NCBI GenBank assembly: GCA_025453925.1
Contig: JALOPK010000271.1
Span: 1 to 6,202 of the forward strand
Source of the DNA: Candidatus Eiseniibacteriota bacterium
Lineage (GTDB): Bacteria; JAFGKV01
Reading direction: 5' to 3'
DNA length: 6,202 nucleotides
Positions 694-6,202 of the stretch are shown here, in pieces. A model generated the notes under the pieces. The model worked only from the letters and a program-made list of their open reading frames with translations. It made no database searches and was not told the DNA's origin. Numbering within the stretch: the stretch's first letter is position 1; each line of letters starts with the position of its first letter. The position numbers were made by a program, and so were the translations under genes.

Positions 694-1395
694 TCATCCC
701 GCGGTCGCCACCTTCCGGGTCCACCCCACCGCACGGGCAATCATGCGTGCGACGATCCGCCGGCCCTTTTCTGCCGTGGCTGCCGACGGGTAGCCCTGGC
801 ACCCGGGGGAGCCGGGAATCGGCCCGGTGAGCCGGTGGGAGAGGTAGGGTTCGAACTCCTCGAATGGCGTCTCGAAATCCCGGATCCGATCAAGGCGTAC
901 GCGTTCGGGGAACAGGTGAAGCATGACCGACGTCTCCGCTTCGTCGGCGTGGCGGGCGCCAGACTGCCGTTCCAGGATGTCGGCCAACTCGATGTCGTAC
1001 AACTCCAGCACTCGCACGGCCTCGTGGGCGTCCCGGAGTGCCTGAAGGTGGAACGGATCACCGTGGGCCGACAGCACGAGGACGCGCCGGAAACCTTGGG
1101 CCGTCCACCATCGGACGATCGACCTCAGACTGCCCTGCAGATCGGAGGCCGTGAGGCTGGTCGAGCCCGGGAAGACCCGATCGCACGGCAGGCCGATGCC
1201 GTAGTTGAGGGTCGGGGCTACCAGGAACCCGGTCTCCTCCGCCACCCGATGGGCGACATGCTCCGCGGTCATGGTGTCGGTGCCGAGGGGCAGATGCGTG
1301 CTGTGTTGCTCGCACATACCCGCGGGCAGGAGCAACGCATCGTGGGATGCCAGGTAGTCCCGCGCGTCCTCCCAGGTCATATCAATCAACCGCAT
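694..1395 (-). CDS. Creatininase-family metal-dependent amidohydrolase
   Basis: This 233-residue protein matches the creatininase family in length and motifs. The family includes creatinine amidohydrolase, the archaeal ArfB deformylase of flavin/F420 synthesis and MftE of mycofactocin maturation. These are cytoplasmic enzymes that use two divalent metals to cleave cyclic or linear amide bonds. Visible motifs in order: LLPAG-x-x-EQH-x-x-HLPLGTD (22-40), giving metal ligands E29, H31 and D40; FPGSTSLT (75-82), the usual PGT-x-SL element; AHGDP (110-114), in place of the usual GHGGN, with H111 as metal ligand; and HADEAETSVML (149-159), matching HAGE-x-ETS. The ATG at 1395 is chosen because GGGAGGAG (1405-1398) precedes it and because MRLIDMTWE is where family members begin. 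The frame stays open upstream to ATG 1551, but that 52-residue extension is not family-like. Substrate is unknown: there is no creatinase, mycofactocin or flavin gene nearby. The divergent neighbour is an XdhC homologue. Confidence 0.9.
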   Translation of the reverse strand: MRLIDMTWEDARDYLASHDALLLPAGMCEQHSTHLPLGTDTMTAEHVAHRVAEETGFLVAPTLNYGIGLPCDRVFPGSTSLTASDLQGSLRSIVRWWTAQGFRRVLVLSAHGDPFHLQALRDAHEAVRVLELYDIELADILERQSGARHADEAETSVMLHLFPERVRLDRIRDFETPFEEFEPYLSHRLTGPIPGSPGCQGYPSAATAEKGRRIVARMIARAVGWTRKVATAG

Positions 1396-2691: not shown

Positions 2692-3987
2692 TCAGACTCC
2701 CCGGCATCCCTCCCGCGACCGAATCAGGCCTTCGCGCAGAGCGGGGGGCTCGCTGTCCGCCGGGCCAACCATGGCAACAGTCGGATCCTGCTCCCAGAAC
2801 AGGCTCCGGGCGATATCCGTGACCTGCTCAAGTTTGACATCGTCGATCGCCGCCAGTGTCTCATCCAATCCCATATGGGTGCCGAAGTACATCTCGTGGG
2901 TGGCGAGCCGGGTCATCCGTGCCGAAGTGCTCTCCTGGGAAAGCACCAAAGCGCCTTTGATCTGCTCCTTGGCTTCGGCCAGCTCGTCAGTGGTGATCCC
3001 ATCCGCGCAGACCTGGTCGAGCTCATGGGCCAGCAGCGCCGATGCATCGGTGAGACGGGAGGGATCGGTGGCGAAGTACACGCCAAGCATCCCCGTGTCC
3101 CGCATCTGCGATACGTGGGAGTACACCGAGTAGACCAGGCCATGATTCTCACGGATGGTCTGGAACAGACGGGAACCCATGCCGCCGCCAAGGGCGGCGT
3201 TGTACACCAGCAGGGGAAATCTGGTCTCGGCCAACGCGCCGTCGGTACGGGCACCCAACAGCAGATGCACCTGGGCCAGCGGCCGCTGCTCGATGACGAG
3301 GCGCTCCCGCGCGGCGGATAGTGACGGCATGATGCCTTGGGCGCCGCCGTTCTCGCCGAAAACCAGCCAGCGATCCAACAAGCCCCGCAATTCGTCGGGA
3401 TCGACACGTCCGGCCGCCGCCACGGTGATGGTGCCGGGCGTGTAGCGACGTCGCCAGAAGGCGCGCACCCCCTCCGAAGTCATCCCGTTCACCGACTCCC
3501 TGCTGCCCAGGAGTCCCGTGCCGATGGGGTGATTGGGCCACAGGCCCCGCGCCATGATCTCGTGAACGAGATCTTCAGGGGTATCCTCCAGGTCGCTGAT
3601 CTCCTCCAGCACCACCCCCTTCTCCTTGGCAAGCTGATCCTCGTCGAACACGTAGTGCAGGATCAGGTCGGCAAGGACATCGACGGCGATTCCCAGGTGA
3701 TCGTCGAGCACCACCGCGTAGTAGCAGCAGAACTCCTTCTCGGTGAAGGCGCCCAGGCTGCCGCCTCGCCCTTCGATATCCCTGGCGATCTCCCGCGCGG
3801 TGCGGCGCGACGTCCCCTTGAAGACCAGGTGTTCGAGGAGGTGCGCGAGGCCTTGCTCATGCTCCTCCTCGAACGCGCCGCCGGCTTCAACCCAGCAACC
3901 AACGGCAACACTGCGGACGTGGTCCATCGGCTCGCAGACGACTCTGGTGCCGTTCGCCAGCGCGATGCGGCTGATGCCGCTGGTCAT
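2692..3987 (-). CDS. M16-family zinc metallopeptidase (processing peptidase-like)
   Basis: The 431-residue product is a full-length single-unit M16B peptidase, related to bacterial PqqL-like and mitochondrial processing peptidases. These enclose unfolded peptides in a chamber and cleave them with zinc. Residues 46-59 (GLAHLLEHLVFKGT) carry the inverted HxxEH motif: H49 and H53 bind zinc and E52 is the catalytic base. The distal zinc-binding glutamate is E128 or E129 in VVLEEISDLEDTPED, at the family's usual spacing of about 75 residues. The second half carries the GGGMGSRLFQTIRE-x-x-GLVYSVYS block (267-290), including the conserved Arg and Tyr of substrate-binding domains. There is no signal peptide, so it is probably cytoplasmic. 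It starts nine bases after the pnp stop with no clear Shine-Dalgarno, which suggests translational coupling to pnp. The start at 3987 is favoured because the following SRIALANGTRVVCE is the normal first strand. Some bacteria carry a homologue in the same place after pnp. Confidence 0.93.
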   Translation of the reverse strand: MTSGISRIALANGTRVVCEPMDHVRSVAVGCWVEAGGAFEEEHEQGLAHLLEHLVFKGTSRRTAREIARDIEGRGGSLGAFTEKEFCCYYAVVLDDHLGIAVDVLADLILHYVFDEDQLAKEKGVVLEEISDLEDTPEDLVHEIMARGLWPNHPIGTGLLGSRESVNGMTSEGVRAFWRRRYTPGTITVAAAGRVDPDELRGLLDRWLVFGENGGAQGIMPSLSAARERLVIEQRPLAQVHLLLGARTDGALAETRFPLLVYNAALGGGMGSRLFQTIRENHGLVYSVYSHVSQMRDTGMLGVYFATDPSRLTDASALLAHELDQVCADGITTDELAEAKEQIKGALVLSQESTSARMTRLATHEMYFGTHMGLDETLAAIDDVKLEQVTDIARSLFWEQDPTVAMVGPADSEPPALREGLIRSREGCRGV

Positions 3988-3996
3988 GGGGCTCGA

Positions 3997-5064
3997 CTAC
4001 CGGCGGCGGGGTGGTCTGCGGTCACCGCCAGGACGGGGACCACGCCGCTCGGGACGAGGCATATCCTCCGGGGCGTCCGCGGGCCGGGCGAAGAGCGCCT
4101 TCCGGCTCAGATCAACCCTGCCCATCTCATCAATCCCGATGCACTGCACCGTGACTTCCTCGCCTTCCTGGACCACGTCCTCGACCTTGCCGACGCGGTA
4201 GTGCTCCAGTTGGGAAATGTGGACCAGACCTTCTTTCCCGGGCAGGTACTCGACGTAGGCGCCGAAGTTCGTGATCCGCTTCACCTTGCCCGTATAGGTC
4301 TTGCCGACCTCGGCTTCCTGCACGATGCGCTCGATCCACTCCCGGGCCTTCAGGCTGCACGCCTCGTCCACCGCGGCGATCGTCACACGGCCATCGTCCT
4401 CGATGTCGATCTTGGCGCCAGTCTCGTCGGTGATCTGCCGGATGTTCTTGCCCCCCGGGCCGATGATCTCACCAATCTTGGAGGTCTTCACCTTGAGAAT
4501 CGTGATTCGAGGTGCATAGGGCGAGAGATTACCCCGGGCAACGGAGAGGGTACGGTCCATGGTGTCGAGGATCCTGAGTCGCGCCGACTGCGCCTTCTGC
4601 AGCGCCTCGGCGATTTCGTCGATTCCGATGCCGGTGGTCTTGATGTCCATCTGACATGCGGTGATGCCGTCACGGGTGCCCGCGATCTTCAGATCCATGT
4701 CGCCGAGGTGATCCTCATCGCCGAGGATGTCGGTCAGGATTGCGGCGCGGCCGCCTTCCTTGATCAGTCCCATGGCGATTCCCGCCGTGGCCGACCGGAC
4801 CGGCACGCCCGCGTCCATGAGGGCCAGTGATCCCGCGCAGACCGTCGCCATGGAGGATGACCCGTTCGACTCAAGGATGTCCGACACGATCCGGACAGTG
4901 TAGGGAAACACGTCCTCGGCGGGAATGGTCGGTTCGATGGCCCGTTCAGCGAGAGCCCCGTGGCCGATCTCACGCCGGCCGGGGCCTCGATTGGGGCGCA
5001 CCTCGCCCACGCTGTAGGACGGGAAGTTGTAGTGCAGCATGTAGCTCTTGTAGCTCTCTCCGCC
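3997..5064 (-). CDS. pnp: pnp C-terminal open frame (second RNase PH core, KH and S1 domains)
   Basis: The PNPase-like part of this frame is 355 residues from GGESYKSY at 5064. The same frame is open further upstream to an ATG at 5382, but that stretch is only a shadow of the N-terminal half. It keeps [10 protein letters not shown] (27-36) and [10 protein letters not shown] (67-76), the phosphate-binding serines. [15 protein letters not shown] (112-126) includes the aspartates D118 and D124, which correspond to E. coli D486 and D492. The KH domain (about 186-245) has [12 protein letters not shown], and the S1 domain (about 255-325) has [24 protein letters not shown]. The last 25 or so residues are a basic Arg/Pro-rich tail. 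It has no ribosome site of its own. The first in-frame ATG is 5040 (MLHYNF), so independent translation would need reinitiation near there, overlapping the tail of the first frame. Confidence 0.7.
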
Positions 5065-6118
5065 GCGTGACCGTCGTGAGACTCTGGGTCTGCCCACGGG
5101 TGAAAAGCGCGGAACCGTGAACCCGCGGGAGAACTCCCACCTCGCAGGTGATCTGCCGGATGTCGTCGGTGCCGCGGCCGTCCAGCCGGACGCGGTCGTC
5201 GACGACCATGCGACGCACCAGATCGTACTCAAGGTCAGCGAGGAGTTGCGCCACGTGCCGTTCTGAGCCCGGTGACTCCTGCTCGATGGCCGCCTGCACA
5301 CCCTGGCGGACCGCTTCCAGAGCCGCACGCCGGGCGGCCTTGTCGCGGATGGCGATCGCCTCGCGCATGCCTCGGGATGCAAGTTCCGTGACGCGGTTCT
5401 TCAACTCCGGAGCCGGCTTGATGGCGACAAACCCCACCTTGGGCTTGCCGACGCGGGCCACGAGGCCCTCCTGGAGGGCGACGAGTTCCTTGATGGGCCC
5501 ATGGGCGAACGCCAGGGCTCCGGCGAGATCGTGCTCGCTGATTTCCCGGGCTCCCCCCTCCACCATGACCAGCGCATCCTTGGAGCCTGCAACCACGAGA
5601 TCTAGGACGCTCTCCTCCTGCTGCGAGAATAATGGATTCAGCACGAATGCCCCATCGATGAGTCCAACTCGCACGGCCGCAATGGGACCAAGGAACGGAA
5701 TCGAGCTGATGGACAGTGCCGCGGAGGCGCCAATGAGGCCCAGCACGTCGGCCGCATTCTCCTGATCCGAGGACAGCACGGTGCAGTAGATCTGCGTCTC
5801 CCGGCGAAAACCCTCGGCGAAGAGGGGCCGAATGGGCCGGTCGATCAGCCTGGCGCTCAAGACCTCGGCCTCCTTGGGTTTTCCTTCCCGTTTGAAGAAA
5901 CCCCCAGGGATGCGACCGATGGCGTATGCTTTCTCGCGATAGTCAACGGTGAGCGGGAAGAAATCCTGATCTTCCACGTCTTTGTCTGCAGCGACAACGG
6001 CAACCATGACAACGGTATCGCCGTATCTCACAAGAACTGCCCCATCAGCCTGTCGCGCAACGCGACCAGTCTCGATCGACAGCTCTCGTCCAGCTAGTTC
6101 CAACTGTACCTTTTCCAT
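4970..6118 (-). CDS. pnp: pnp N-terminal open frame (382 residues, last 31 out of frame)
   Basis: This frame starts at ATG 6118, preceded by AGGAG (6127-6123) that overlaps the rpsO stop region. It encodes the first RNase PH domain (about residues 10-145, with FFKREGKP at 74-81 and [11 protein letters not shown] at 90-100). The second part of that domain follows (about 148-215), then the all-helical linker domain (about 240-320). The second RNase PH domain begins at [11 protein letters not shown] (311-321) and continues through [19 protein letters not shown]. After T351 the frame leaves the conserved sequence: 31 unrelated residues rich in Arg, Gln and Leu precede the stop at 4970. If made, the product would lack the active-site half, the KH and the S1 domains, so it could not act as a phosphorylase. 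Confidence 0.8.
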
Positions 6119-6122
6119 ACTA

Positions 6123-6127
6123 CTCCT
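6123..6127 (-). promoter_or_regulatory. Ribosome binding site of pnp
   Basis: AGGAG on the minus strand follows directly after the rpsO TAA and lies four bases before the pnp ATG at 6118. There is no room for the separate pnp promoter and RNase III hairpin that E. coli has between rpsO and pnp, so pnp here depends on rpsO transcription. Confidence 0.75.
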
Positions 6128-6202
6128 TTACCGCCGCAGGCCGAGTTCTGCAACAATCGCTCGGTACCGGGCGACATCTTTCCACTTGAGGTAGTCAAGC
6201 AA
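6128..6202 (-). CDS. rpsO: 30S ribosomal protein S15, C-terminal 24 residues
   Basis: Reading the minus strand from the right edge gives 24 codons ending LLDYLKWKDVARYRAIVAEL then GLRR and TAA. This is the C-terminal helix and GLRR terminus of S15, a small-subunit protein that binds 16S rRNA helices. The start lies outside the window. rpsO directly upstream of pnp is one of the most conserved gene pairs in bacteria, which supports the identification despite the short fragment. The stop is nine bases before the pnp start. Confidence 0.93.
   Translation of the reverse strand: MLDYLKWKDVARYRAIVAELGLRR

Follow-up and report, generated by a model that had tools for sequence, protein, structure and literature searches.

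An interrupted pnp gene in a Candidatus Eiseniibacteriota draft genome is most likely the product of an imperfect scaffold join

The pnp gene in the stretch of DNA analysed here (the window, which is the entire 6202-bp contig C305 of a 502-contig draft genome) is interrupted, and the question is whether the organism has lost its PNPase or whether the interruption arose during assembly. On the minus strand, the PNPase reading is split over two frames: it runs from 6118 to TQSLTTVT (5066), while homology resumes at 5064. Each half gives an HSP in a frame of its own, at 80% and 87% identity respectively, which places the split reading far beyond chance. Together they follow the order of bacterial PNPases, core 1 - helical domain - core 2 - KH - S1, and according to Pfam the domain set (two RNase PH cores, helical RNA-binding domain, KH and S1) is complete across both; beyond the break, the second RNase_PH match sets in at position 49 of the profile. 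The window gene departs from this type only by a 38-bp gap at a putative contig join and the resulting change of frame. As assembled, it lacks the TLGTxxDxQ segment of core 2 and is not readable in one continuous frame, and the mechanically called ORF of the 5' part continues out of frame to 4970.

The size of the gap was determined against one congener (L003, genome G001), which has an intact single frame of 729 aa including the missing block, and one member of the same family (L004, genome G002). In the global nucleotide alignment to the congener, a single gap breaks the frame, and it measures exactly 38 bp; the gap against the family member is likewise 38 bp. It slides at equal cost (10 mismatches) between 5064/5065 and several points down to 5058/5059. 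Over the gap, the relative's sequence encodes LGTKVDEQKIEDL(E), 13 residues of the second RNase PH core that are absent from the window, where the frame is shifted as well; this block aligns without gaps in solved PNPases. An earlier note on this DNA is thus upheld in its description of a frame split with loss of about 13 conserved residues and about 38 bp, in its statement that no frame encodes the missing segment and in its rejection of a homopolymer error, while the loss of 41 bp that it also allowed is supported by neither relative. An uninterrupted pnp frame is found in the congener, in the family member and in almost every distant relative. The features are collected in Table 1.

Table 1. 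Parts of the interrupted pnp gene and comparable lesions in other contigs of the draft
Contig	Feature	Position	Strand	Evidence
C305	pnp 5' part	5065..6118	-	351 codons in homologous frame; Pfam RNase_PH, RNase_PH_C, PNPase; 80-82% aa identity to congener L003
C305	missing 38 bp, putative contig join	5058..5065	-	38-bp gap vs L003 and L004; placement ambiguous within these bases
C305	pnp 3' part	3997..5064	-	remainder of second RNase PH core, KH, S1; Pfam RNase_PH, RNase_PH_C, KH_1, S1; 87-88% aa identity to congener
C14	acyl-CoA ligase, net -46 bp	3108-3112		vs L175; predicted join 3107-3138
C6	TonB-dependent receptor, net -37 bp	1123-1129		vs L183 and L184
C35	beta-propeller protein, frame break	2949-2966		predicted join 2943-2970
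C7	transporter, 12 N	10768-10779		vs L187 net -31 bp including the 12 N, hence ~43 bp really missing

Apart from the break, neither half bears the marks of a pseudogene. The upstream 351 codons contain no stops, and 188 of their 267 differences from the congener fall in third positions. The downstream 349 codons, which had already been described as intact, are equally free of stops, with 154 of 206 differences in third positions. To judge from these substitutions, the codons flanking the lesion are under strong purifying selection. Neither further decay nor relaxed selection is seen in either half, which leaves a very young lesion or none at all in the organism; flanks that look selected would also be expected after a recent real deletion.

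The other genes of the window appear complete and ordinary. Between 694 and 3987 lie a member of the creatininase family (minus strand), a member of the XdhC/CoxI family (plus) and an M16 peptidase (minus). At 6125-6202 on the minus strand, the apparent end of rpsO can be recognized by eye, cut by the contig end. The order rpsO-pnp is the usual one, and the apparent rpsO upstream of pnp agrees with it.

A distinction between the two origins is offered by the contigs of the draft themselves. The contigs sampled from the assembly (G000) form interleaved series of steadily decreasing lengths, for example 5199, 5179, 5178 ... 5074, 5073, 5065, then C305, followed by 5055, 5050, 5044 ..., or 10634, 10531, 10396, 10322 ... 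in a second series. Such interleaved falling series would fit contig names containing a rank by length. Over-long outliers, themselves unordered, occur here and there in the series, and from the lengths and order of the contigs the simplest reading of these is that they are contigs joined after ranking. Lexicographic sorting of rank names alone would account for the interleaved series, but not for outliers that do not descend. C305 is such an outlier, and since its neighbours C304 and C306 measure 5065 and 5055 bp, the original C305 would have ended at 5055-5065. This predicted join, for an original contig deduced from the length series, coincides with the 38-bp loss at 5058-5065. For a random break, counted from either end, the probability of falling within the predicted interval is 0.35%.

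Furthermore, the lesion in pnp does not stand alone. In a coding-frame scan covering about 456 kb of coding sequence, together with comparison with relatives, multi-codon losses are confined to over-length contigs, and similar lesions occur at further presumed joins of the draft, in C14, C6, C7 and C35 (Table 1). The N run of C7, a contig of 16048 bp, is placed as if the contig had originally measured 10767 bp, a length suited to the 10-kb series. Counted from the contig end, the break in C6 lies at 3115-3121, outside the predicted 3138-3168 by about 17 bp. Three of the four N-free contigs (C305, C14 and C35, with C6 outside) thus break inside the predicted interval; the corresponding chance probability of about 5e-6 is approximate, because the hypothesis had already guided part of the collection of cases. 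In contigs of normal length, the scan contains one clear break, in C299, which resembles a single-base shift: at about 4235, a gene resembling that of a B12-binding protein (L104) has an apparent single-base frame shift.

Several other sites are of a different or less distinct nature. In C316, an fdrA-like gene (L195) changes frame at about 7056 and seems to be without a stretch; this break is off the predicted join and perhaps represents a further join. A candidate break at 4014 in C315 is also off the predicted join. In C327, an apparent frame switch (L206) at 4854-4856 lies within the predicted interval 4828-4864. A site in C295 (~17240), first counted as a case, is regarded as ambiguous, as two frames overlap there in an ATGA stop/start. 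Two further candidates were rejected: the site in C308 (~5035) is the ordinary boundary of two genes resembling oxidoreductase alpha and beta subunits, and that in C20 consists of two genes. In several outlier contigs, no break can be seen where the join is predicted; such joins may lie between genes, preserve the frame or have been made correctly. These contigs, the misplaced break in C6 and the candidates in C316 and C315 speak against the join model.

Taken together, it is very probable that pnp is intact in the organism and that the break is an assembly artefact stemming from an imperfect scaffold join. In all likelihood, a contig that originally measured about 5060 bp (window position 1 to ~5058-5065) was joined to a further piece, ~1.14 kb long (extending to 6202), the gap of about 38 bp between the two was left unfilled and their ends were abutted without Ns. 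This would have deleted 13 codons on paper and shifted the frame. A scaffolding or gap-closing step would be the cause, and a single pnp frame would be expected in the reads. That 37-46 bp are missing from several joins suggests a scaffolder that systematically underestimates gap size, with contigs probably being abutted whenever its gap estimate is zero or less. In the loss of tens of bases at contig boundaries, in several contigs of this draft, the phenomenon resembles the scaffold-join and gap-closing errors of draft MAGs; it differs in that the position of the join can be predicted from contig order and lengths despite the lack of Ns.

Alternatively, a real and recent 38-bp deletion may have inactivated the only PNPase of the organism, or of the sampled strain. 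Some bacteria can lose PNPase, the deposited sequence does show the lesion, with no Ns at the C305 junction, and a second PNPase, a possibility raised by the earlier note, was not found in the window's own assembly. Among the 502 contigs of this assembly (3.9 Mb), only the window locus is matched when the PNPase domain, the N-terminal half or the C-terminal half serves as query, apart from weak hits to S1 repeats on C282 and a questionable one on C293; at 82% completeness, the assembly is not complete enough for a further copy to be excluded. A real deletion in pnp is nevertheless improbable, as it would have to coincide with a predicted contig end, in a draft with comparable losses at other joins, in a gene that is intact in relatives and of which neither half has decayed further. 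Loss of PNPase, one of the two options of the earlier note, is therefore left unsupported by the position of the break at the predicted contig end and by the comparable losses elsewhere; its other option, an assembly error, is supported, as a lossy join of two contigs and not as a collapsed repeat. It is hardly credible that the two halves make up a functional split PNPase, whether as independent polypeptides or linked through frameshifting, for although frames and domains are kept in both, thirteen conserved residues of core 2 are encoded in no frame, a degenerate pattern search, as far as such a pattern can tell, gives no match to the block elsewhere in the assembly, and relatives have a single frame.

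The relatives also possess a second, divergent PNPase, in the congener at G001:C178:17165-18202 (L075) and in the family member at G002:C65:4250-5272 (L079), with frames of 716 and 695 aa and 40-42% identity to the N-terminal half of the window protein. No counterpart of it was found in the window's assembly.

With the break read as a scaffold-join artefact, a false claim of PNPase loss is removed. Unmarked joins in a draft genome can be detected from the order and lengths of its contigs, and in the genome analysed here, a gene lying across such a join should not be classed as a pseudogene.
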